A stretch of 24,982 nt of DNA from a virus, in the IMG/VR virus record IMGVR_UViG_3300008459_000357, positions 1 through 24,982 of that record; one strand, written 5' to 3'. How positions within the stretch are numbered: the first letter of the stretch is position 1; each line of letters opens with the position of its first letter. A program made the position numbers and the translations under genes. The notes under the pieces were generated by a model. It saw nothing but the letters and a program-made list of their open reading frames with translations, was not told the origin of the DNA and did not search any database. Of the stretch, positions 7,063-24,982 are shown piece after piece.

Positions 7063-7656
7063 ATGGACTTAAATAAACTTAAAGGACACGTTCCTGACAA
7101 TGTAATTGCTCAAATTCCTGATGTAATGGCTAAATTCAAAATTGATACAGCTGTTAAATTATCTCATTTCTTAGCTCAATGTGGACATGAATCAGGTGGA
7201 TTTAAAGTAGTAAATGAAAACTTAAACTATGGAGCTAAAGGTTTAAATACTATTTTTAAGAAATACTTCCCAACAGAAGAAAAAGCTAAATTATACGAGC
7301 GCAAACCAGAAAAAATTGCTAACTTAGTTTACGGTAACAGAATGGGTAATGGCCCTGAAACATCAGGTGAAGGATACAAATTCCGTGGTCGTGGTTATAT
7401 TCAATTAACTGGTAAAGCTAACTACACTGAATTTGACAAAGTAGTAACTGAAAACATAGTTGAAAATCCTGATTTAGTAGCAACTAAATATCCATTATTA
7501 TCAGCTGCTTGGTTTTTCCATAAAAACTGCTTAGGTAAATGTGTTGATGCTTCTGACGCATCTGTATTATCTGTGACTAAATGTGTTAATGGTGGAACTA
7601 TTGGTTTAGAAGACCGTAAAAAACACTTTAAGGAATATTACGCTTTATTAGCTTAA
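7063..7656 (+). CDS. Glycoside hydrolase family 19 (chitinase-type) endolysin or virion lysin
   Basis: 197 residues, one complete GH19 domain without signal peptide or membrane segment. The motif FLAQCGHESGGFKVVNENLNY (residues 36-56) carries the catalytic Glu (E43, with E52 as candidate partner), and FRGRGYIQLTGKANY (residues 107-121) is the substrate-cleft signature. GH19 phage enzymes hydrolyse the glycan strands of peptidoglycan. The gene lies inside the baseplate operon, 10 bases after gp6 and before a TATTTATA element, rather than beside a holin, and no holin is visible nearby. It may be the lysis endolysin, or it may ride on the baseplate and act at entry with the CHAP enzyme encoded at 1413. 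Confidence 0.9.
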   Translation: MDLNKLKGHVPDNVIAQIPDVMAKFKIDTAVKLSHFLAQCGHESGGFKVVNENLNYGAKGLNTIFKKYFPTEEKAKLYERKPEKIANLVYGNRMGNGPETSGEGYKFRGRGYIQLTGKANYTEFDKVVTENIVENPDLVATKYPLLSAAWFFHKNCLGKCVDASDASVLSVTKCVNGGTIGLEDRKKHFKEYYALLA

Positions 7657-7673
7657 TTTCTATAATCGCCTAA

Positions 7674-7681
7674 TATTTATA
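7674..7681 (+). promoter_or_regulatory. TATTTATA element, candidate late promoter
   Basis: TATTTATA in the 45-base gap after the GH19 gene ends 20 bases before the ATG at 7702, in the context TAATATTTATA that recurs at 18991. It marks the likely start of a new unit covering 7702-14066. Role inferred. Confidence 0.42.
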
Positions 7682-7701
7682 CTAGAATAATACTAATATA
7701 A

Positions 7702-8817
7702 ATGGGTGTTTATAAAATATTTCCATCACAGGATACAACAATTTATACTGATTACGGCACATTAAATGCTGGTTTAGATGAGATTTTAGATTTATCTAAA
7801 AATGCTCCAGTTCTATATCCATCATCATCAACTAGCCGTATATTAATTAAGTTTGATAACTCTGATATAGCGGATGCTGTAAGTAAGGCAGGAGCCAACT
7901 ATACAGCATCCCTAAAACTTTACAACGCTAACGTTCAATCAATCCCAACTAACTTTAATATTGATTTTTATCCAGTATACCAAAGTTGGGATATGGGTAC
8001 AGGACGTTTTAATAATATTCCTGAAATAACTGATGGCGCTGGATGGACTTATAGAAGTGCAAATGAAACAAATGCTTGGACAGTATCAGGATTACCAGGT
8101 GGTGTAGCTTCATCTTACTATACAGGAAATGAAGGTGGTGCTGCTTGGTATACATCTTATAAAGTTACTCAATCATTTAATTATTTCTCAACTAAAGATA
8201 TTAATGTTAATGTTACCCCATCAGTTTATGCTTGGGTAAATTCAGTAATAACTAATAATGGTTTCATTATAATGAATGATACCTCTGCCTCTCCAACAGG
8301 TACAGGTTCATTTGAGTTTGATCCAAGTTATCAATACACATTTAATTTCTTTTCTAGAGATACTAATACTATTTATCCTCCTTGTTTGGAATTTAAATGG
8401 GATGATAGTACCATTAACCCGGGTACAACCCCATATATACCAAATGAAGAAATAAATGTAGCTATATCTAATAATAAAAATGTTTTCTATGATAATGAAT
8501 ATGTAAGATTTAGAGTGTATGCTAGAGAAAAATACCCACAACGTGTTTATGCTACATCTACTCTTTATAAGTATAATAAGTTATTACCTACAGCTTCATA
8601 TTACTCAATTATAGATTTACAATCAAACAATGTTATAGTTGATTTTGATAATGTAGCTACTAAATTAAGTAATGATGTTACAAGTAGTTTCTTTAGATTC
8701 TATATGAATGGTCTAGAACCTGATCGTTATTATAAAATACAAATTAAGTCTATCATTGATGGTGGTACTTATATTTTTGATGATGATTACTATTTTAAAG
8801 TATTACAAACTGTTTAA
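7702..8817 (+). CDS. Tail/baseplate protein with DNRLRE-like adhesion domain
   Basis: 371 residues. Residues 1-60 (FPSQDTTIYTDYGTLNAGLD, then SRILIKFDNSDI), the strand ASLKLYNA, and later DINVNVTPSVYAWVNSVITN with NGFIIMND follow the pattern of DNRLRE beta-sandwich domains, which occur in bacterial surface proteins: 'D..l....N.G....L', 'r.li.FD.s.i', 'DVT..V..W....N.GF.l'. The C-terminal 120 residues form a second beta-rich domain (FRVYAREKYPQRVY). The likely role is a wedge-associated or fibre-attachment protein at the baseplate edge. It is followed after one base by a small coiled-coil protein and then the very large LamG protein, and a candidate promoter precedes it. T4 has no obvious counterpart. 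Confidence 0.6.
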   Translation: MGVYKIFPSQDTTIYTDYGTLNAGLDEILDLSKNAPVLYPSSSTSRILIKFDNSDIADAVSKAGANYTASLKLYNANVQSIPTNFNIDFYPVYQSWDMGTGRFNNIPEITDGAGWTYRSANETNAWTVSGLPGGVASSYYTGNEGGAAWYTSYKVTQSFNYFSTKDINVNVTPSVYAWVNSVITNNGFIIMNDTSASPTGTGSFEFDPSYQYTFNFFSRDTNTIYPPCLEFKWDDSTINPGTTPYIPNEEINVAISNNKNVFYDNEYVRFRVYAREKYPQRVYATSTLYKYNKLLPTASYYSIIDLQSNNVIVDFDNVATKLSNDVTSSFFRFYMNGLEPDRYYKIQIKSIIDGGTYIFDDDYYFKVLQTV

Positions 8818-8818
8818 A

Positions 8819-9163
8819 ATGAGCGAACAAGTTAAAGTACAAAAAGTTATTTATAGTTTACAAGAATTTAATAATGTTGTAAATACTCAATTTTCACAGT
8901 TAGCTAAACCAATAACTGAACAACAGGTTGATTTAGATAAAACTGTAGCTGAGTTTTTTGATGATTATAATACATTATTCTATGACATTCCTTTATCAGG
9001 TTCAGATGAATCTCATTTAGGTTTAGCTACTAGAAGTTTAGAATACTTAGATATATCATTAGAAGATTTACAAACAGAAATAGATACTTTACGTGAAGAA
9101 AATATTGATTTAAAAAATCAAATTTTAGTATCCTCTCAAATCAATATAGGAACACAAATATAA
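8819..9163 (+). CDS. Small coiled-coil baseplate-cluster protein
   Basis: 114 residues from the ATG at 8819, one base after the preceding stop. An upstream in-frame ATG at 8756 would overlap the previous gene by 60 bases and is less likely. The last third (LEDLQTEIDTLREENIDLKN) is a clear leucine-heptad coiled coil, suggesting a dimer or trimer. The N-terminal part has no recognised domain. Packed between the DNRLRE-like protein and the 1633-aa protein, it may be a connector or assembly factor of the wedge. Function unknown. Confidence 0.65.
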   Translation: MSEQVKVQKVIYSLQEFNNVVNTQFSQLAKPITEQQVDLDKTVAEFFDDYNTLFYDIPLSGSDESHLGLATRSLEYLDISLEDLQTEIDTLREENIDLKNQILVSSQINIGTQI

Positions 9164-9164
9164 T

Positions 9165-12100
9165 ATGTCTACAACAGTTTCAAAAATATCTAGAAATAAT
9201 AATATCCTTACTGGATCTGCTTCTCAGTTAGTTGCAACTAGAAATATGATCCGTAACTTTGGATCAACTGAAGACTATGTTGAATTACATGTGTCTGATC
9301 CATCAGGAAAAAATCTTTATTCACTTGTTCCCTTCACTAATTATCAAGTACCTGGAACATTCCAACCATCTACAACTTATACTATACAGGAATTAATATT
9401 TGATCCTGCTACTGATGTTAAGAATTTAGGTATTCAATTTGGTGAGTATATTTTAACTTATAATGTTTTAAGACCTAAAATAGTCAAAACTAATGTTAAG
9501 TCATTTTTCATTAAAGAAATATCTGGTGATAGAACTGAACTTAGATTAGTTACTAATAATGTTTCAAATATTGATGTTGAAAACGGAACTTATGATTTTA
9601 TTAATGAAATACAAGGTTTAAGTTATTTTAAAGAATTCTATTTAAATTTTGGTAATAATAATTTATTACCTGCTATTAATATAGCATTAGATAAAAATAC
9701 TAATCCATACTCAGTACTAATTAAACTGTTAAATCCATTACCTGTAAATTATAAGGTTAATGATACATTATTAATAGTTGATGAGATAGCTAACCCTCAA
9801 GTATTTGAAGTTAGTACAACTGTTGATCCTACACCTACTGTTTTTCCTACTTTACGTGGACCTAACTTTGATTTAGATTTAGATAATTTAAGAGTAGGAC
9901 CTACACCATATTATAATTTCAATCAAATAACTACTTTTAGTGGTTCATTTGCTCCTCAATTACAACAATTACTTAGTCAATTAAGTGCTTCAAATTTTGC
10001 TATTAATGTTGACTACACTGATTATGAAAACTTTGTTCATTTCTCTTCTGCAGCTCGTAGATTAGAAGGATTCAAATATAAATTAACTAACATTGAGTCA
10101 TATACTAAAGCTAAAACATCAGCTTCACTTAGTACATCTCCAACAGCTCAAATTGATGTTCAAAAATATCAAAACCAAATAAACTCAACAATTCAAAGTT
10201 TTGATGGATGGGAGCAGTATTTGTATTATGAAACTGGTTCATATTCTTGGCCTAAACAAAACTCAACCAAACCATATATTATTCAATCAGTAACTTCTTC
10301 TGAATCATCAACTTGGTATAGTGGTAATTATGATTCTGCTTCATTATATGATGATAATAATCAGAATTATTTACTTTATGCTATGCCTGGTTACATAGCT
10401 GAAAATACAGATAATGAACTAGCATTTAAGTTTGTAGCTTCAATTGGACAAATGTTTGATGATGTTTGGATTCATATTAAAGCTATTTCTGATTTATATC
10501 AAGCTAAAAACTCATTAACACAAGGTATATCTAAGGATTTAGTATATTTCGCTTTACAATCAATGGGTGTTAATGCCTATACTGATGAAGATGGAAATAA
10601 TCAATTCCAATACTTGTATGGTGTTAATGATGATGGTACTTATAAACCTATAACTGGTTCTTATGATACGTTAATTAGTGCTTCTAATTATCAAATGTCT
10701 GGACAAGACCAGCAAAAAGGAATTTATAAACGTTTATATAGTAACTTACCTTTATTATTAAAGTCAAAAGGTACTACTCGTTTTAATCAATATTTAAACA
10801 CTATATTTGGTATTCCAACTACAATAATGGGATCATTAGAGTATGGTGGTGTAGACAAAGTAACATCTTCATTTGAATATGAATATGATAGATTCACTTA
10901 TGCTTTACAAATATCAGGTAGTGAAAATGTTGTCACTATACCTTGGGTTTACACTTCACAAAGTTTAGCTAGAACAGGATATAGTGATATTGCTCCTAAT
11001 GGTATTGAGTTTAGATTTAAATCTCAACAATTACCTTTATCATATACTACTCAATCTTTATTTTATAAAGGTTCTGATTTTCAATTAGATTTAATATATA
11101 AAAATACAGGATCTAATGACTCAATTTATTCAGGAAGTGTAGGTAACTTTGGTTATCTTAAGTTCACTTTAGGTAACGCTGTAGTTACATCATCTACTGT
11201 TCCTGTTTATACAACTGGTTCAAATCATGATACTAGTTGGTATTCTGTATTAGTTCAAAGAACAAATCCTGATTTAAGAATAGGACAAACAAGTACTTCT
11301 CAAACATATAACATTTATATTAAAAATAATGTTTGGGGAGAAGTAGGACACGTTGCAAGTGCTAGTTTAACTACTAATAACTCAACTAACAATGGTAAAT
11401 GGTATAGTGAAGGTGTATTATCATTTGGTGATGGAGGTGTTTATCCATTCTCAGGTTCACTACAAGAAGTAAGATTATGGTCTAACTATGTTTCTGAATC
11501 TACTTTTGATTCACATGTATTAAATCCTGAATCAATTGAAGGTAATTATACAACATCTTCATTTAATGATTTATCAGCTAGATTTCCATTAGGAAATAAC
11601 TTATACACTTATAACCATACAGTTGATTATCAAATAGCTTCAGTAGCACCTGATCAAAATATACAAGAATGGACTGCTTCATTCTCTCAATTCCCTAATG
11701 AAAATAATTATATTTCATTTACTGAAACATATTATGCTGATGTTGCTAACTCAGGATATGCTAACCCAGTAACTGATAAAGTTAGAATTGTAAGTGGTAG
11801 TGAATATGGAACTCAATTATTACCTAATAAGAGTATTGAGATAACACCTAATATTCCTTTAACTAAAGATATTCACTTATTTGACGCTAGTTTATCTCCA
11901 CAAGATGAAGTTGATAGAGCTATTATCGCTCAATTTGGTTCTACTTATAACTTAGATGAAATTATAGGTAATCCATCAGGTTCATATGATGAATTAAGAT
12001 CATTACAATATGAGTTCTTTAAGAAATTTGATAGCAAATACAACTATAAAGATTATATTCGTTTAATTGAATTTTTCCATAACTCATTATTTAGAACACT

Positions 12101-15856: not shown

Positions 15857-17344
15857 ATGTCAGCAAATGCATTCAAAAGACTTAACATATCTGATACTTT
15901 TGTAGTTCCTTATACGGCGAACAAAAGTTGGGATATTTCATCATCATCATTTGCTGCCCATCAGATTAATACTAATATAGGGGTTAATTATAGTGGAACT
16001 ATATTCAGCCCTAACACAGAATATTATACTAATGGTCAGTACGATAGATTAGTGTATGAATCTGTTAACACAGTTTATTACCCAACATTTTTATCTAAAG
16101 TAGTAAGTACTCAATCATTACAAAATACAATTTATAATGATGGTACTTTAAGTACCTCTTCTTATTGGAAAGGAGCTAATGCTCTTGATCCAGGTAACCT
16201 AGACACTATTAAATTCTTTCCAACAGGATATGGTGATGTTATTTATGTATTAAATATACCTAAAAATTTAACTGGTGATAAGATTTTACCTGCTACATTT
16301 GAAGTTTCATTTGCTAGTGGTTCTGACACTTATAAAATATATGATGATGGGAACTACAACTTATTTTTTAGTGGTAGTGATGTAAGTTCTTCTATTAATA
16401 CAGTATTATCTCAAAGTTCATATGTTGGTAATATCTTCTATGAACAAAACGTAGCTATTTTAACTATTATACCTAATAGTGTTAGATTAAGAGGATGGAG
16501 ACCAATTAACCCATATTGTGTTCAATTATCTCCTTCAGCTACTCCAACAGCTACTCCAACAGTTACTATTACTCCAAGTAATACAGCAACACCAAGTATA
16601 ACAGCTACACCAAGTATTACTCCTACAAATACTCCAACTAATACTCCTACAAACACTGTAACTCCAAGTAATACAGCTACACCTAATACTAGCTTAAGTA
16701 GTACACCAACACCAACAGTTACACCTAGTGTAACTCCAAGTGTCACACCAAGTGAAACAGCTACACCTAGTGTAACTCCAAGTGTTACTCCATCTACATC
16801 TTGTACTTGTGGTACACCAACAATTACTAGTATAGTAGATACAGGTAGTGGAACAGTTGATATATATTTTACATTACCAAGTTGTGGAGTATGTGGTATA
16901 ACAAATCTTCAATCTTCAACAGATAATTCAACATGGAGTAATAGTACATCAGGATGTACATCTCCAAGATCAGCTAATTTAATAGGTGGAGGTCCAACAT
17001 ACTTTAGAATAAATCAAAGTGGAACTTGTGGAACAAGTGGATACTCAACTAGTGTTTATCATACTCCTTCATCACCAACACCTACTCCAACAGTAACTAT
17101 AACAGCAACACCTACACCAACACCTACCGCAACACCACCATGTGATACTTATTGGATGTTTACAGGCGGTACAACAGGTACAGGTGGACACACAACATTT
17201 AGTTACACTGATTGTACTGGTAATATTGATTATATTGTTGTAGGAAATGGATTAACAGAATACCGTTGTGGTTTCTTATCTCCATCACCTCAAGTAACTA
17301 ATGATGGTGATGGTACTTTTGTTAATACAGGAGCTTGTCCATAA
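15857..17344 (+). CDS. Modular tail adhesin with Thr/Pro-repeat linkers
   Basis: 495 residues. Residues 1-224 are a beta-rich base domain ending in RPINPYC. A Thr/Pro repeat (TPS, TPT, TVTPS units) spans about 225-314. A Cys-rich beta domain follows (about 315-404, [10 protein letters not shown] then [20 protein letters not shown]), with the spacing of a fibronectin-type III-like repeat. A second short Thr/Pro linker (405-428) leads to a C-terminal domain (429-495) ending TGACP. The arrangement is that of a fibre: base, extended stalk, exchangeable binding tips. It is the first of three consecutive proteins with this design. The last nine coding bases plus stop and the AT-rich sequence after it are repeated at the end of the gene at 18064. 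Receptor binding is inferred. Confidence 0.65.
16530..16798 (+). repeat. Degenerate Thr/Pro-coding tandem repeat
   Basis: About 270 bases of ACTCCA/ACACCA-type codon pairs with GTT/GTA, AGT and ACA between them, encoding TPS, TPT and NTPT units. Units are synonymous variants rather than identical copies, so protein-level selection for a stiff, extended linker seems to maintain them. A shorter stretch of the same kind lies at 17071-17139 in the same gene. Confidence 0.8.
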
Positions 17345-17347
17345 AAA

Positions 17348-17355
17348 TATTTAAT
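17348..17355 (+). promoter_or_regulatory. TATTTAAT, degenerate copy of the TATTTATA element
   Basis: TATTTAAT lies in the 16-base gap between the 495-aa and 232-aa adhesins and ends 5 bases before the ATG at 17361. The preceding bases (agcttgtccataaaa) match those before the TATTTATA at 18994, so it may be a decayed duplicate of that element. Weak evidence for activity. Confidence 0.22.
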
Positions 17356-17360
17356 AATAG

Positions 17361-18059
17361 ATGAGTAATACAGGATATAAAGCATACGCAGATTTAGAGC
17401 AATATTATTTAGATAATGGTATTGCTACTGGCGTCACTAAAACTAATAGTATTAGTGATCCTGACTACGTTGCTCCTGTATGGGATCCATTTTATTGTCC
17501 TTTACCATCAATTACTCCATCTATAACAACAACACCAAGTGCGACTCCAACAGTTACACCTACTGTTACACCATCAACAACACCTACACCTACACCTACT
17601 CAAACACCAGTTTCTGCTACACCAACACCTACTGTAACAACAACTGTAACACCAACACCTACTAACACACCAACTAATACACCTACTCAAACACCTACAC
17701 CAACACCAACTCCAACTCCAACAGTGGGTACTACTATAGAAGTAACAGGATTTAGCGCTGGTTTACAACCATGTATTGGAGGTTCTTGTGATGATTATAT
17801 GTCATATACTGTTTATTTAAGTACTACAACACCAGTTGATGTTCAGTATACTTTAAGAGTACAATTACAATTCTATGGTGGACCTGTATATTACCAATAC
17901 TTTAGTGGTACTATCCCAGCAGGATATAGTTATGACTATGATAATAACACTCCATGTGATGGAGGAGGTTCTTATATAGGATGTGGATATACTGTATTAA
18001 GTGCTTGTATTGATTATATTGACGCAACTGTAACAATAGACCCTGGTTATCAATGTTAA
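17361..18059 (+). CDS. Short modular tail adhesin with Thr/Pro linker
   Basis: 232 residues. A short N-terminal domain (1-48; [20 protein letters not shown], ending [10 protein letters not shown]) leads into a Thr/Pro repeat at about 49-122. A C-terminal Cys-containing beta domain follows (123-232; [20 protein letters not shown], ending DPGYQC). The tip differs from those of the neighbouring adhesins while the linker is nearly the same, including a 57-base block shared with the gene at 18064. It is separated from the upstream adhesin by 16 bases and from the downstream one by 4. The likely role is an alternative receptor-binding or accessory fibre protein; it could also be a decoration protein. 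Confidence 0.65.
17505..17725 (+). repeat. Thr/Pro-coding repeat in the second adhesin
   Basis: About 220 bases of ACACCT/ACACCA/ACTCCA units encoding TPT, TPTVT and TPTQTP. It contains the 57-base block (17601-17657) that recurs at 18607-18663. The +3 frame through it is open only because the repeat lacks stops, and should not be read as a gene. Confidence 0.8.
17601..17657 (+). repeat. 57-base direct repeat, copy 1 (copy 2 at 18607-18663)
   Basis: Bases 17601-17657 match 18607-18663 with one difference (position 17640 A, 18646 C). The first 39 bases are identical. Both encode the same linker peptide ([13 protein letters not shown]). Synonymous codons are free to vary in the rest of the linkers, so near-identity here points to recent duplication or recombination between the two genes. 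Confidence 0.85.
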
Positions 18060-18063
18060 AATT

Positions 18064-18993
18064 ATGGGAATAAATAGAATATTAAATACTAACATTACTA
18101 ATATAAAGTTTAAGAATAGTCTTACAACTTATGAAAACTTTATCAAATGTACTGTTAAGGACTATGAGTTTAATTTAAGCTATAATCCCACATTATTATC
18201 AGGATCACAAGGTTTATTAACTCCATATAGTGCCTCAAACGGTGGTGACATATTCTATATCAACTCAGAAACTAATTACGGTACATTAAAAGATTTCGCT
18301 ACTGGTTCTACTTCAGGATCAGATTTTTCACCATATGTTGGATCAATAGGATTATATAATGATTCTGGTGATTTATTAGCTATAGGTAAAATGGCAGCCC
18401 CAATGCCTATAGCAGCTAACACAGACATGACTTTCTTGGTTAAGTATGATACTAAATGGGAAAATAAACCATTCTTTACTCCACCACCATCATGGACTGC
18501 TACACCAAGTGTAACACCATCATTTACACCATCGATATCTGTTACTGCTACACCTTCAGTTACTCCATCAGTAACAGCAACTGTTACACCAACACCTACA
18601 CCAACACAAACACCAGTTTCTGCTACACCAACACCTACTGTAACACCAACTGTAACACCAACATCAACAACAACCCCTACACCTACCCCATCTAGAACTC
18701 CAAGCGCTACACCTCCAGCTGTAGTTTATACTTATGCGGGTGGATCTAGTTTTTGGGCTACTGATACTTTAGCTTGTACTAATAAAACTTGTGCTAGACC
18801 TTGGTATAGAACAGCTCCAACATTTGCTAATGGTCAAATAGTTTATGATGACTCTGCTTGTACAACACCATATAATGGAGGAGGTAATTGGGTAGCTATA
18901 TCTACTACAACAGGTACATACTGTGGTGGCAGTTGGAGAGCAATTCAAATTGATACTAATGGTGTTATCTTAGCTAGTACAGCTTGTCCATAA
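18064..18993 (+). CDS. Modular tail adhesin: GDLLA module, Thr/Pro linker, Cys-containing tip
   Basis: 309 residues. Residues 27-131 are the module shared with the C-terminus of the protein at 14771 ([18 protein letters not shown]). A Thr/Pro linker occupies about 140-218. The last 90 residues form a tip domain with [40 protein letters not shown] and the ending TACP. Small domains of this look, 'VY.....TTPYNGG..W..I', occur in surface proteins and phages of Bacteroidota as far as I recall. The gene is the last of the adhesin triplet; its stop is followed directly by a TATTTATA element. It probably forms a fibre or tip for receptor recognition. The tip assignment is from pattern only. Confidence 0.65.
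18499..18712 (+). repeat. Thr/Pro-coding repeat in the third adhesin
   Basis: About 215 bases of Thr/Pro/Ser/Val codons forming the linker between the GDLLA module and the tip. It includes copy 2 (18607-18663) of the 57-base block found in the second adhesin. Confidence 0.8.
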
Positions 18994-19015: not shown

Positions 19016-19450
19016 ATGCTAAAATGGAAAACATGGGATGTAATTGATCCCACAAAATATTACGGTTTTGTTTATAAAATAACTAATAAAATCAATGGTA
19101 AGTTTTATATCGGTAAAAAAGTTTACTGGAATAATAAGAAACACAAACTTACTAAAAAACAACTAGCCGAACTTCCCCCAACTCCAGGTCGTAAACCAAC
19201 TCATGAAGTAGTTCAAGTTGAGAGCGATTGGAAAACATATTGGGGTTCTAATAAACAGCTTTTAGCTGACATTAAAGAGTTCGGAGCTGAAAATTTCGAT
19301 TGTTGGATATACGTCCAATGTAAAACTAAAAAACAACTTACATACTACGAGATGCAATATCAATGTAGTGAACAAGTACTTATTGGGAAAGACAGATCAT
19401 ATAACGATAACATATTAGGTAAGTTTTTTACCAAAGATTTGGTAGACTAG
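19016..19450 (+). CDS. GIY-YIG family endonuclease (homing type)
   Basis: 144 residues, a stand-alone GIY-YIG nuclease domain. The two signature strands are GFVYKITN (residues 17-24) and FYIGKK (30-35). The candidate metal-binding Glu is E112 in TYYEMQY, and the candidate Asn is near residues 130-132 (YNDNILGK). The segment SDWKTYWGSNKQLLADIKEF is shared with T4-like phage GIY-YIG proteins as I recall them. The usual catalytic Arg after YIG is not obvious; Lys residues stand there. No DNA-targeting C-terminal domain is present, so it resembles free-standing Seg-type enzymes. It stands between the adhesin and replication genes, a common place for inserted homing endonucleases. It could instead act in host DNA breakdown. 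Confidence 0.75.
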   Translation: MLKWKTWDVIDPTKYYGFVYKITNKINGKFYIGKKVYWNNKKHKLTKKQLAELPPTPGRKPTHEVVQVESDWKTYWGSNKQLLADIKEFGAENFDCWIYVQCKTKKQLTYYEMQYQCSEQVLIGKDRSYNDNILGKFFTKDLVD

Positions 19451-19474
19451 AATATCATCGTTATATTATTCGTT

Positions 19475-20410
19475 ATGATTAATAAGGCCCTAGTAAATAC
19501 TGTTACTTCTGTATTAGGAAGAGGTAAAGAAACTAGTAATAACAATTACGCGTTTAGTTGCCCTTTTTGTAATCATCATAAACCTAAACTAGAAGTAAAC
19601 ATGGTGCCAAATAAGAAAAATGAAAATTTCTGGCACTGTTGGGTATGTAATGCCAAAGGTAAAACGTTATTAGGACTATTTAAAAAAATAAAAGTAACTC
19701 CTGACAAAATATCCGAGCTAAAATCTATACTCGGTTTTACAACTAAAGAAGAAGTAGAATCAACAGTTGTAAAAGTATCACTTCCTAAAGAATATAAACC
19801 ACTAATTAACTTATCTCGTACAGATATTATGGCTAAACACGCTTTAATGTATTTAAAAAAACGAGGTATTAGTAAGGCAGATATACTTAAGTATAATATA
19901 GGTTATTGTGAAGAAGGCAGGTATGCAGGTAGAGTTATAGTACCATCATATAATGCTGATGGTGAATTAAATTATTTTATTGCTCGAGATTTAAATCCAG
20001 ACTCAAAGAAAAAATATGATGCTCCTAAATGTAATAAAAATGAAATTATAGGATTAGAATATTTTGTAAACTGGAACGTACCAGTTATATTATGTGAAGG
20101 AATATTTGATGCTATTGCTATTAAACGTAACGCAATACCATTATTAGGTAAAACAATACCTAAAGCACTAATGATGAAGTTAGTACAAAACAATGTTAAA
20201 ACAGTATACGTGTCTTTAGATAGGGACGCCTTAAAAGATGCTCTTAAATATGCAGAAGAATTACTCAACTTAGGTAAAGACGTTTATCTGATTGACTTAA
20301 ACGATAAAGACCCTTCAGAAATGGGCTTCGAAAAATTCACCAAATTAGTTCATGAAGCCGATCAACTCACACTAGGTGAACTAATTTATAAAAAACTAGA
20401 ATTAGCATGA
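19475..20410 (+). CDS. DnaG-type DNA primase (T4 gp61-like role)
   Basis: 311 residues. A zinc ribbon lies at the N-terminus: C29-P-F-C32 and C55-W-V-C58, the CHC2-type four-Cys version. The primase core follows, with GRVIVPSYNADGELNYFIAR (residues 152-171). The Toprim motifs are VILCEGIFDA (E208, D212) and SLDRDA (D249, D251), which bind the catalytic Mg2+. The protein is shorter than cellular DnaG and has no helicase-binding C-terminal domain or fused helicase, as expected for a phage primase working with a separate helicase. It would make RNA primers for lagging-strand synthesis. Its stop overlaps the start of the nuclease gene (ATGA), implying coupled translation. Confidence 0.9.
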   Translation: MINKALVNTVTSVLGRGKETSNNNYAFSCPFCNHHKPKLEVNMVPNKKNENFWHCWVCNAKGKTLLGLFKKIKVTPDKISELKSILGFTTKEEVESTVVKVSLPKEYKPLINLSRTDIMAKHALMYLKKRGISKADILKYNIGYCEEGRYAGRVIVPSYNADGELNYFIARDLNPDSKKKYDAPKCNKNEIIGLEYFVNWNVPVILCEGIFDAIAIKRNAIPLLGKTIPKALMMKLVQNNVKTVYVSLDRDALKDALKYAEELLNLGKDVYLIDLNDKDPSEMGFEKFTKLVHEADQLTLGELIYKKLELA

Positions 20411-21186
20411 GTATAGATAAACACTCAAACATTATTCACGATCCTAAAATTAAAAGAATTGTAGAATATAGTGCCGACAACAAACAAGTAAATGTTTTAG
20501 ATCAAAGATTTTATAGACGAGATGGTAAATATTATCCTTCTATTACTAGTATCTTAAATTACTTTCCTAAAAATCAATTTTTCCATAACTGGCTTAAAGA
20601 TGTAGGACATAATAGTGATATTATAGCCGCTAAAGCAGCAGCTGAAGGTACTCAAGTACACAATGCATGTGAAGAACTTATGTTAGGTAAAGAAGTAACA
20701 TGGATGAATGAAGATGGAAAAGTAAATTATTCACTTGATGTATGGAAAATGATTTTAAAGTTTGCTGATTTTTGGAAACAAACAAAACCAGAATTAGTAA
20801 CAACTGAATATCATTTATTTTCAGATGAGTATCAGTATGCAGGTACAACAGATATTATTTGCCGTATAGATGGTAAATTATGGTTAATAGATATTAAAAC
20901 ATCTAATTCAGTTCATACATCATATAATTTACAATTAGCTGCTTATGCTAAAGCTTGGAATGAAACACATAATGAACCTGTAGAAGGAATAGGTATTTTG
21001 TGGTTAAAAGCAAGTACACGTGGTGAAAAAAAAGATAAAATACAAGGTAAAGGATGGGAACTTAAAGTCATAGATGATATTGATTCTAATTTTGAAATGT
21101 TTCTTAAAATATACGATGTATATAAACTTGAAAATCCTGACGCAAAACCGAGTACAGAAACTTTACCTATATCTGTGAAGATCTAA
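20407..21186 (+). CDS. PD-(D/E)XK (RecB/Cas4-like) nuclease
   Basis: 259 residues. The nuclease motifs appear in order: GTQVHNACEELM (H85), E134, YAGTTDIICRID (D149), WLIDIKTSN (D162 and K164), and the QLAAYAKAW motif (Q176, Y180). This is the RecB/Cas4-like exonuclease arrangement. No iron-sulphur cysteine cluster is visible, which argues against a true Cas4. The gene overlaps the primase stop by four bases, so it probably serves phage DNA replication, recombination or end processing; degradation of host DNA is another option. The start ATG at 20407 is supported by the ATGA junction. Downstream, the gene ends at the first TGACCGC element. Confidence 0.82.
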   Translation: MSIDKHSNIIHDPKIKRIVEYSADNKQVNVLDQRFYRRDGKYYPSITSILNYFPKNQFFHNWLKDVGHNSDIIAAKAAAEGTQVHNACEELMLGKEVTWMNEDGKVNYSLDVWKMILKFADFWKQTKPELVTTEYHLFSDEYQYAGTTDIICRIDGKLWLIDIKTSNSVHTSYNLQLAAYAKAWNETHNEPVEGIGILWLKASTRGEKKDKIQGKGWELKVIDDIDSNFEMFLKIYDVYKLENPDAKPSTETLPISVKI

Positions 21187-21827: not shown

Positions 21828-22304
21828 ATGAAAGTAATTGAAATCGAAGCAAAAGTTGCTAATCGTAAAGCATACGAAATTGAAGCTGATGAGCAAGAAT
21901 ACCTAAACTTTAGTGCAGGTGTTGAAGTACTCCCAGCTCAATATTTCGATAATGATTACGGATGTAAGTTCTATTATAGAAAACGTCATGAGCCAGGTAC
22001 AACACATTGGGCTGATGGTGGTTATGAATGTGTAGAAGAAAATGGCGCTATACGTGCGTTTCATTTAGACTCACTTATTGTCCACCCACGTTACTTTAAA
22101 AAGAAAGCAAAAGCTGCTCAAAAAGCTAAAACAGGTGGTAAACGTGGTCGTCCAAAAATGGACCCATCACTTAAAAAAGCACCTGTAGTTTATGTTAAAA
22201 CTGGTGGTAAGCGTGGTCGTCCTAAAATGGATCCGTCACTTAAAAAGTCAACAGTGTATGTTAAGACTGGTGGTAAACGTGGGCGCCCAAGAAAGGATGC
22301 TTAA
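21828..22304 (+). CDS. AT-hook DNA-binding protein with three tandem AT-hooks
   Basis: 158 residues. An N-terminal domain of about 95 residues (acidic, with HWADGGYECVEENGAIRAFH) of unknown family is followed by a Lys/Ala segment and three AT-hook repeats: GGKRGRPK at 103-110 and 126-133, and GGKRGRPR at 148-155. The R-G-R-P core inserts in the minor groove of AT-rich DNA. The repeats are spaced 23 and 22 residues apart by MDPSLKK and a short YVKT strand. In this AT-rich genome it may coat or condense phage DNA, act as a transcription regulator, or target host DNA. It belongs to the small-gene block after the TGACCGC elements and is followed immediately by a TATTTAT element. The AT-hooks are clear; the role is inferred. 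Confidence 0.75.
   Translation: MKVIEIEAKVANRKAYEIEADEQEYLNFSAGVEVLPAQYFDNDYGCKFYYRKRHEPGTTHWADGGYECVEENGAIRAFHLDSLIVHPRYFKKKAKAAQKAKTGGKRGRPKMDPSLKKAPVVYVKTGGKRGRPKMDPSLKKSTVYVKTGGKRGRPRKDA
22128..22304 (+). repeat. Tandem AT-hook coding repeat (2 full units and a partial third)
   Basis: Units start at 22128 (69 bases), 22197 (66 bases) and 22263 (partial, to the stop). Each codes for KTGGKRGRPKMDPSLKK plus a short spacer, the third stopping after the hook. Several synonymous differences between units show that the duplication is not very recent or that the protein is under selection. Such a repeat can gain or lose hooks by slippage. Confidence 0.85.
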
Positions 22305-22565: not shown

Positions 22566-23327
22566 ATGAAGATTAGAATTAAAGAAGCACAACGTGTACC
22601 TAAAGCGATATTTTTAGCTGGTCCCGCGGGAGCTGGTAAGTCGTTTGTTGCTAAATCTTTACCTATTTCTACTTTTCATGTTATAAATGTCGATGATACT
22701 TATGAAGAATTGCTTAAAGCATCTGGATTAGGTATGAAACAAAAGGATTTTGATCCTGAACAATTATCTCAAGCGGCTAAATTAATGGGTCAAGCCCAAA
22801 AAGCAACTAAAGAAAAATACGCTAAGGCACTTGAAAATTTACATGACATCATTATTGATGGAACTGGTGCTGCATCTCGTCCTTTACTTAAGAAAAAGGC
22901 AGAATTAGAGGCTTTAGGATACGAAACAATGATGTTAATGATTTATGTTTCACCAATTACTTCACTTGAACGTAATGTTAGCAGAGGAGAAAGTGGTGGT
23001 CGCTCATTAATGCCTAGTATTGTTTTAAGAACATGGAGAGATATTAATAAAAATATAAACACATATAAACAAGCATTTGGTGATAATTTTATTTTAATAA
23101 ATAATGATCCAAAGAATGCTAATAAAAGTTTTGATGTGGAAGATATTAAACGTAGATTTTTTGACACATCTAAAGCTAAAGGTAAACCAAAATCACCTGA
23201 AGAATTAGCTAAGTTAAAAGCAGACAGAGAAGAATTAAATAAAGATATTAAATTAGCATTAACATTAGAACCTAAATTCACACCAGCTGATACTGCTAAA
23301 TCAAAAATACAATCATTTATTAGATGA
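22566..23327 (+). CDS. P-loop kinase (zeta-toxin/PNK-like)
   Basis: 253 residues. The Walker A motif is GPAGAGKS at residues 19-26 (K25, S26), preceded by the strand AIFLA. DIIIDGTGA (about residues 96-104) is the usual Walker B-like strand of the AAA_33/zeta-toxin/polynucleotide-kinase group, and RNVSRGESGGRS (about 138-149) supplies the Arg-rich lid. The substrate cannot be told from the sequence: nucleic-acid 5' ends, nucleosides and UDP-sugars are all used in this superfamily. The Lys-rich C-terminus (about 205-253) is an extra helical tail. The stop overlaps the next start (ATGA), so the kinase and the nucleotidyltransferase-containing protein are made together. The P-loop is encoded by an unusually GC-rich palindrome, TCCCGCGGGA at 22622-22631. 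Confidence 0.78.
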   Translation: MKIRIKEAQRVPKAIFLAGPAGAGKSFVAKSLPISTFHVINVDDTYEELLKASGLGMKQKDFDPEQLSQAAKLMGQAQKATKEKYAKALENLHDIIIDGTGAASRPLLKKKAELEALGYETMMLMIYVSPITSLERNVSRGESGGRSLMPSIVLRTWRDINKNINTYKQAFGDNFILINNDPKNANKSFDVEDIKRRFFDTSKAKGKPKSPEELAKLKADREELNKDIKLALTLEPKFTPADTAKSKIQSFIR

Positions 23328-24982
23328 TAGATTTAAATACAATATTAAACGAATTAAACGAGGAAGAAGGTACTGTTTCCGCTGTATGTTACTACCCAGG
23401 AGGTTTTAAACCACCACATGAAGGACATTTTGAAGTAGTTAAAGACTTAGCTTCACGCACTTATATCACTAAAGTTATAGTTTTAATTGGTCATAAGACT
23501 CGTGATGGTATAACTAAGGAAATGAGTAAACGTATTTGGGATTTATATTTAGCTACTAACCCAATGGCTAAAGTAAGTGTAAGAATAAGTGATGATCCAT
23601 CTCCAATTTCAAATATATTTTCATCAATGGATTCTGATTTAGAATTAAAAGCATATGTTGCTGGAGCTAAATCAGAAGTAGAAGATCAAAATTATTTTAG
23701 TTCATTAAAGAAAGCATTTGGTGATAGAGTAATGCCTATTTCTGTTGATGAGAAAGTAATAACAGGAAACAAACGCTTATCAGGAACTCAAGTTCGTGAT
23801 TTAATCACTCAACTTAAAAAATCAGTATTAGAATTACGCTCAGTATCTGATAAATCATCAACTGAATATTCTAAAGCTAGAAACAACTATTTAAACACTT
23901 ATGAAGAATTAAAAGGTTGTTTTCCAGAATCAGTAATACAAAAAGGTGGGTTTGAAGATATACTTAAAATATTAGGTATTCCAATATTAAATGTAGATCA
24001 ACTTCAAGAAAATCAAGAAGATGGTAATTTAATTATACGTGTACCTTATCAATTAACACCTAAAATTGAGAACTATTTAAATACAATGTTAATACCATTT
24101 GAGTATTCTCAACAAGCATTTGGTGGTAATGAGCGTCGTATGTTAATTCCTAATTTAGGAGATTCAATTGATCAAAAAGAAAAAGTACTTAATTATTTAA
24201 GTAAACATAATATATCTGTTAATGTTGAAGAAGATTTATTCACTATCAATTGGTGGAAAGAATCATTAACTGAGTTTAAACTTGATGTTGAACCAACTAT
24301 TGGAGAAGATGATGTTGATCCTAAAGAATTAGAATTAGGTATTAAAACAGAAAAAGAACACACAAGTGATTATGAAACAGCTAAAAGAATAGCTTTAAAT
24401 CACCTAGGTGAAAATCCAAAATATTATTCTAAATTAAATAAAGCAGGATTAGAAGAAACATTATCTGAACCAGAAGAAAAAACAGATGATGTATTAAGTG
24501 ATTTTATTGATTTTGCTATTCAAGCTCTTGAATTAAAACAATCACCAAAAATTACTTTTACTGATGATGAGGAATTAGCTAAAAATATGCACTCATTAGG
24601 TGCTTATCAACCTAAAACTGATGAGTTATTAGTAGTAAAAGGACCAAGATTAACAGCTGATATTTTAAGAACATTAGCTCATGAATTAGTTCATCGTAAA
24701 CAAGATGAATTAGGACAATTAGAACCAGGTTCTGGTGCTACAGGATCACCTGTTGAAAATGAAGCTAATTCAGCTGCTGGTATATTATTAAGACAATTTG
24801 GAAAATACAGACCAGAAATATTTGAAACACTAACTGAAGAAGATAGAGAAGATAGATTTAAAATCTACTGTGATATGGATGGTGTTATAGTTGACTTTGA
24901 TAAAGGATATTTTGATTTAACAGGTGAAAGAGCTAGTTTTGGAACTGATCCTGAAAAATTCTGGGCTCCAATTACTAAAGCA
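23324..24982 (+). CDS. Multidomain protein: HxGH nucleotidyltransferase, HELVH metallopeptidase, HAD phosphatase (3' end outside window)
   Basis: Open from the ATG at 23324 to the window edge, 553 residues so far. Domain 1 (about 18-165) is a HIGH-type nucleotidyltransferase: GGFKPPHEGHF with H32/H35, and the second motif SGTQVRDLI near 150-160. A poorly defined region follows. At about 345-380, GIKTEKEHTSDYETAKRIAL with NHLGENPKYY resembles a small domain found in phage polyproteins (DUF5661-like as I recall). Domain 3 is a zinc peptidase: HELVH (453-457) with E480 in NEANSAAGILL, the HExxH...E pattern of ImmA/IrrE-like peptidases. Domain 4 begins IYCDMDGVIVDF, HAD motif I with D517 and D519. 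The chain is coupled to the upstream kinase by ATGA. Overall it resembles a polyvalent protein; the substrate of each part is unknown. Confidence 0.75.
   Translation, partial: MIDLNTILNELNEEEGTVSAVCYYPGGFKPPHEGHFEVVKDLASRTYITKVIVLIGHKTRDGITKEMSKRIWDLYLATNPMAKVSVRISDDPSPISNIFSSMDSDLELKAYVAGAKSEVEDQNYFSSLKKAFGDRVMPISVDEKVITGNKRLSGTQVRDLITQLKKSVLELRSVSDKSSTEYSKARNNYLNTYEELKGCFPESVIQKGGFEDILKILGIPILNVDQLQENQEDGNLIIRVPYQLTPKIENYLNTMLIPFEYSQQAFGGNERRMLIPNLGDSIDQKEKVLNYLSKHNISVNVEEDLFTINWWKESLTEFKLDVEPTIGEDDVDPKELELGIKTEKEHTSDYETAKRIALNHLGENPKYYSKLNKAGLEETLSEPEEKTDDVLSDFIDFAIQALELKQSPKITFTDDEELAKNMHSLGAYQPKTDELLVVKGPRLTADILRTLAHELVHRKQDELGQLEPGSGATGSPVENEANSAAGILLRQFGKYRPEIFETLTEEDREDRFKIYCDMDGVIVDFDKGYFDLTGERASFGTDPEKFWAPITKA

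Follow-up and report, generated by a model that had tools for sequence, protein, structure and literature searches.

A probable head-packaged cargo polyprotein in a T4-like phage, with prohead-protease-type sites at its domain junctions

The window analysed here is an entire virus record of 24,982 bases, and its last gene (23324–24982, plus strand) encodes a multidomain chain, a putative cargo polyprotein. The reading frame runs for 553 codons without interruption and is open at the contig end, which cuts the gene; the 3' end lies beyond the contig, about 660 codons are expected, and because the window is the whole record its own genome cannot supply the rest. The complete gene was found in related IMG/VR contigs, namely L004 (661 aa, 77% identity with the window protein), L002 (627 aa), L007 (601 aa) and L003 (599 aa). 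In these full-length relatives the chain terminates just past the HAD domain and the domains are not split by any stop, which removes the objection that a stop or an assembly error just outside the window separates them. The motifs of the original prediction (GGFKPPHEGHF, HELVH, a downstream Glu in ENEAN, and CDMDGVIVDF, in one uninterrupted frame running past the window) are all confirmed.

The ATG of the polyprotein gene overlaps the stop codon of the upstream gene (ATGA), which encodes a zeta-toxin/PNK-like kinase (22566–23327, plus strand) with the leader MKIRIKE↓A (arrows mark candidate cut sites). Further upstream on the plus strand are a 158-aa ORF (21828–22304) that has three C-terminal AT-hook-like repeats, KTGGKRGRPKMDPSLKK, and is conserved in L003, L004 and L007; a GIY-YIG-like ORF, a DnaG-like primase and a RecB-like exonuclease (19016–21186), directly upstream of the cluster and with a primase-exonuclease order that matches the Flavobacterium phage immuto; and tail-fibre-like ORFs with long TPTPTPSVTPS repeats (15857–18993). 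On the G002 contig a 1092-aa ORF (L024, 6404–9682) resembling Bacteroidota TonB-dependent receptors stands between the exonuclease and the cargo cluster. A scan of bacterial genomes matched one MAG contig, and for this reason no host is named.

The domain order is leader, HxGH nucleotidyltransferase, small alpha/beta domain, DUF5661 (in some members), zincin peptidase and HAD 5'-nucleotidase, all on the plus strand. The nucleotidyltransferase (23381–24001) carries conserved HxGH and SxTxxR motifs on a Rossmann-like fold, as in NMNAT-like members of the HIGH superfamily; the CTP_transf_like profile matches it in five of seven members, and its best Foldseek matches are NMNAT/NadD folds (E 3.7e-5). 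That structural match is the only result taken from a whole-protein AlphaFold model built with six sequences, which was poor (pLDDT 53.6). A small alpha/beta domain, recognized from secondary structure, follows (24035–24262), and then a DUF5661 module (24314–24442; PF18905, E 2.6e-9). The latter is present in the window protein and L004 and absent from L002, L003, L006 and L007; in relatives without it, the flanking sequence is joined at an L-x-E position.

The predicted zincin metallopeptidase domain (24473–24823) has HELVH at 24680–24694 and the third ligand Glu in ENEAN; HExxH and the downstream Glu are invariant, with the proviso that the search patterns partly selected the HExxH and CDMD residues. 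Its matches to DUF6782, M78 and Tox-MPTase3 are weak. Of the HAD 5'-nucleotidase domain the window holds the start with motif I only (24857–24982), the remainder being supplied by the full-length relatives, which have all four HAD motifs (DxDG, S/T, K, DD); the later ones were not selected by the search patterns. NT5C was matched in 24 of 82 rows. A model of peptidase plus HAD, folded with 82 sequences, has a mean pLDDT of 94 and a flexible stretch at about model residues 119–128, where the IFE and LTE sites lie. Foldseek matched it to solved HAD phosphatases; as regards the zincin fold, the matches listed all fell on the HAD half. A PDB sequence search gave almost no matches. The nucleotidyltransferase, HELVH and HAD domains originally listed thus hold up to profile and structure searches, the peptidase by weak matches; the leader, the small second domain, DUF5661 and the junction sites had been missed.

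The chain opens with a capsid-targeting-like leader, MIDLNTILNE↓LNE↓ (23324–23362, plus strand), which contains two candidate cut sites and is conserved in all relatives. Genes downstream in the relatives share a recurrent start, typically MIKLxDILKE, MKIRIKEA or MKKSELKQLIREA, in front of unrelated proteins. A short N-terminal leader ending in L/I-x-E and common to otherwise unrelated proteins recalls the internal proteins of T4, which have a 10-residue capsid-targeting sequence (CTS) cleaved by gp21 after L/I-x-E (PMC9026906) and are diverse defence proteins joined by the CTS only (PMC3012670). The leader cluster is on the same strand as, and adjoins, terminase, portal, prohead protease, scaffold and capsid genes. 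Across five contigs a fixed leader motif was found in 32 of 86 cluster genes versus 6 of 373 elsewhere. Since these contigs are related, the single 180-kb contig G001 gives the cleaner figure (6/14 in the cluster versus 2/214 for other genes, p = 4e-7); the motif was defined after leaders had been seen, which makes its strictness post hoc but leaves the contrast with the other genes of that genome unaffected. No clear leader was seen on some HADs and some polyproteins, including that of immuto. Stand-alone HAD genes that start at the domain and have no leader occur in L056, L062, L067, L083, L093, L099 and L115, and several such genes directly follow a peptidase ORF ending in IYQ.

Could the protein simply be a cytosolic fusion of nucleotide-metabolism enzymes that is made during infection and not packaged, its leader being only a short N-terminal helix? 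The NMNAT-like and 5'-nucleotidase domains fit metabolism and some HAD genes lack a leader, but unrelated proteins share the leader, and do so only within a single late cluster of virion genes, and a leader-bearing nucleotidyltransferase has been detected in virions. We regard such a fusion as very improbable. The virion protein comes from cyanophage S-SM1: mass spectrometry of purified particles found 'a putative citidylyltransferase (T4-GC190)' (PMC3037559). This protein, S-SM1_190, is an HxGH nucleotidyltransferase that starts MKKFSAFLNEA, a leader similar to that of the window protein, but it is a single enzyme with no peptidase or HAD. Since BLAST found no significant similarity between the two proteins, S-SM1_190 is a class precedent and not a test of the window protein; the passages of that paper examined here contain no discussion of a targeting leader. 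Together, leader, gene cluster and virion precedent lend indirect support to the earlier proposal that the product is delivered with phage DNA. That it is made early, as was also suggested, is unlikely because the gene lies within a same-strand run of virion genes.

The L/I-x-E motif recurs along the chain. With domain boundaries drawn by eye, nine of the ten such sites in the window protein are in the leader or between domains, and the tenth is in DUF5661. The junction sites, all on the plus strand, are LQE after the nucleotidyltransferase (24002–24010), LTE and IGE before DUF5661 (24266–24307), LEE and LSE before the peptidase (24449–24469), and IFE and LTE in the flexible linker before HAD (24818–24838). 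LQE, and likewise LEE and LSE, are conserved in all six polyproteins.

A wider comparison did not depend on hand-chosen boundaries. Each of the 477 stand-alone leader ORFs in the viral loci retrieved was split at its leader site, and the cargo that followed was searched against all 2,649 proteins. A junction was counted where the start of a cargo aligned at an internal position of a longer protein, and the preceding sequence was inspected. Among 173 junctions with <40% identity upstream, 45 have [LI]xE ending precisely where the cut is projected, against a background of 2.3 per position (maximum 8). One apparent leader family, INWNxPIILCE, proved to be a truncated primase and was removed, although one similar primase row is left in the 173-junction set; a rerun without this false family, and with a slightly different redundancy filter, gave 40 exact sites in 146 junctions. 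In a strict set (non-redundant, alignment from cargo residue 1–2) the exact motif was found at 33 of 94 junctions, where 1.1 were expected, and [LI]xD and [LI]xK were each found at none. Single-linkage clustering of the cargo collapsed because of chimeric chains, and family counts from it were not used.

At fused junctions E occupies position -1 in 49% and L/I position -3 in 45%, while L/I at -7 is at background (14%); in stand-alone leaders L is at -7 in 426 of 477. Of the leader, then, only P1 = E and P3 = L/I persist and the other positions do not, a pattern that favours a retained cut site over a leader in decay. The 'IGEG' module illustrates this best: it occurs alone as MIKLVDILKE↓IGEG and in longer chains as NPLNE↓IGEG, GNQLNE↓IGEG, SKLNE↓IGEG, VRVLNE↓IGEG and NVLKE↓IGEG. 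HADs fused to peptidase, zeta-like kinase or other partners have [LI]xE within 30 aa upstream in 46 of 48 cases versus 15% and 22% in control windows, a count that, like those for leaders and junctions, is inflated by relatedness among the sequences. I-[FY]-E before HAD was rejected as evidence in its own right: stand-alone peptidases end in IYQ, IYE or IFE, so the motif may be a conserved peptidase end and is not used alone.

An exact L/I-x-E is missing at most junctions (113/173), as it would be if the protein were packaged and trimmed of its leader while its enzyme domains stayed joined as one injected multifunctional protein; the virion RNA polymerase of N4, which has a zincin, is packaged unprocessed (PMC5512222). 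Against this stand the marked concentration of the cut motif at the exact junction position, with no other part of the leader retained, and the occurrence of the modules as separate genes elsewhere. We think it rather unlikely that the domains stay joined.

If the chain is cut, which protease does it? An S77 (gp21-type) prohead protease gene is present in 16 related contigs (3 of 14 mostly short ones and 13 of 15 long ones). The window contig, itself a fragment, lacks it. All ten long contigs with typical leaders have the protease gene, and L157 and L159, long contigs without it, have no typical leaders in the stretch examined, a co-occurrence that comes from a small sample of possibly incomplete contigs. 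The protease of the related phages has LIE at residue 8 (T4 gp21 has LIE at residue 9), and their scaffold has 12–15 L/I-x-E sites.

The original prediction instead suggested self-processing. On this reading HELVH would cut its own chain and set the effectors free, either ahead of packaging or once injected. Polyvalent proteins contain zincins more often than any other domain, and self-processing has been proposed for them (PMC5512222); exact junction sites are commoner in proteins with HExxH (22/53) than in those without (18/93). Both proportions are far above background, however, so sites also occur in chains that have no HExxH. The peptidase is often encoded as a separate small gene, and the junctions carry the motif of gp21, the same site at which, judging from sequence, the leaders of stand-alone proteins would be removed. 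Self-processing by HELVH is unsupported on these grounds and we consider it unlikely, while the multi-effector, polyvalent-like nature of the chain stands. HELVH is probably an effector, not the processing enzyme.

We accordingly consider it likely that the gene encodes a head-packaged cargo polyprotein of a T4-like phage, processed by the prohead protease. From the domains, the leader and its enrichment in the late cluster, the junction sites and the relatives' protease gene, we infer packaging, cleavage and injection as follows. The leader, which resembles the T4 CTS, would direct the chain to the core of the prohead. As the head matures, the S77 protease would cut after L/I-x-E, removing the leader, and the same cuts would separate nucleotidyltransferase, small domain, DUF5661, metallopeptidase and 5'-nucleotidase. 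Like T4 Alt and IPI, the freed pieces would be retained in the head and pass into the host together with the DNA. The combination of NMNAT-like enzyme, 5'-nucleotidase and kinase suggests that the cargo handles nucleotides or NAD as infection begins; a part in host take-over may be an alternative. NAD handling could possibly act against NAD-depleting defences, and NAD+ reconstitution by phages is known (e.g. PMC12774641). For T4-like phages at large we lean towards a scheme in which a leader is followed by a chain of exchangeable enzyme modules, separated in the head by the prohead protease at L/I-x-E; modules would swap between stand-alone and fused forms, with the cut site as the selected boundary.

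The system resembles T4 IPI, IPII, IPIII and Alt in its short N-terminal L/I-x-E leader, late context, S77 protease and diverse cargo that has only the leader in common. It differs in leader sequence (MIKLxDILKE here, MKTYQEFIAE in T4) and in that T4 cargo consists of single proteins, whereas here, as known from sequence, enzymes lie in one chain with L/I-x-E between them. Polyvalent proteins (Iyer et al. 2017, PMC5512222) likewise combine several enzymatic domains with a zincin in a single phage protein for which delivery along with DNA is predicted, and the present chain has at least two effector domains, including a predicted zincin, in one phage polypeptide. Unlike them, it has junctions that fit the prohead protease, a capsid-targeting-like leader and an HxGH-nucleotidyltransferase/NT5C-HAD set, and its modules are found as individual leader genes too. 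It looks like a cross between T4 internal proteins and polyvalent proteins, a head-cargo system of T4 type with its cargo strung into polyproteins; the open-access literature yielded papers on the T4 CTS and on polyvalent proteins, and none on this leader cluster or on polyproteins with prohead-protease junctions. If the reading is right, the release of such multidomain phage proteins is explained by the head protease and not by self-cleavage, a T4-like phage would have a means of sending in a ready-made enzyme set along with its DNA, and an anonymous late cluster becomes a predicted list of head-packaged effectors, readable from leader and cut sites.

The cultured phage immuto (MW353176, L125) is a natural test organism for these predictions. 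It has a syntenic primase, exonuclease, 907-aa 'NadR' nucleotidyltransferase/peptidase polyprotein and HAD; no virion proteomics for it was found in the literature. Its polyprotein (7122–9845), which unlike the window protein has no clear leader, adds an N-terminal Pol-beta-like nucleotidyltransferase and a second HExxH motif, HEIEHLTH. The HAD 5'-nucleotidase of immuto is a separate gene with the leader MKKVMGNLADLLLE, and several neighbouring genes have leaders. Lastly, Melnitz (L126, 4590–6539) and HTVC008M (L127, 3022–4809) have a common 'TGHRPGTTPQQW' domain in otherwise different chains; it is preceded by LDE in Melnitz and by IDE in HTVC008M, the same junction pattern in Kyanoviridae.
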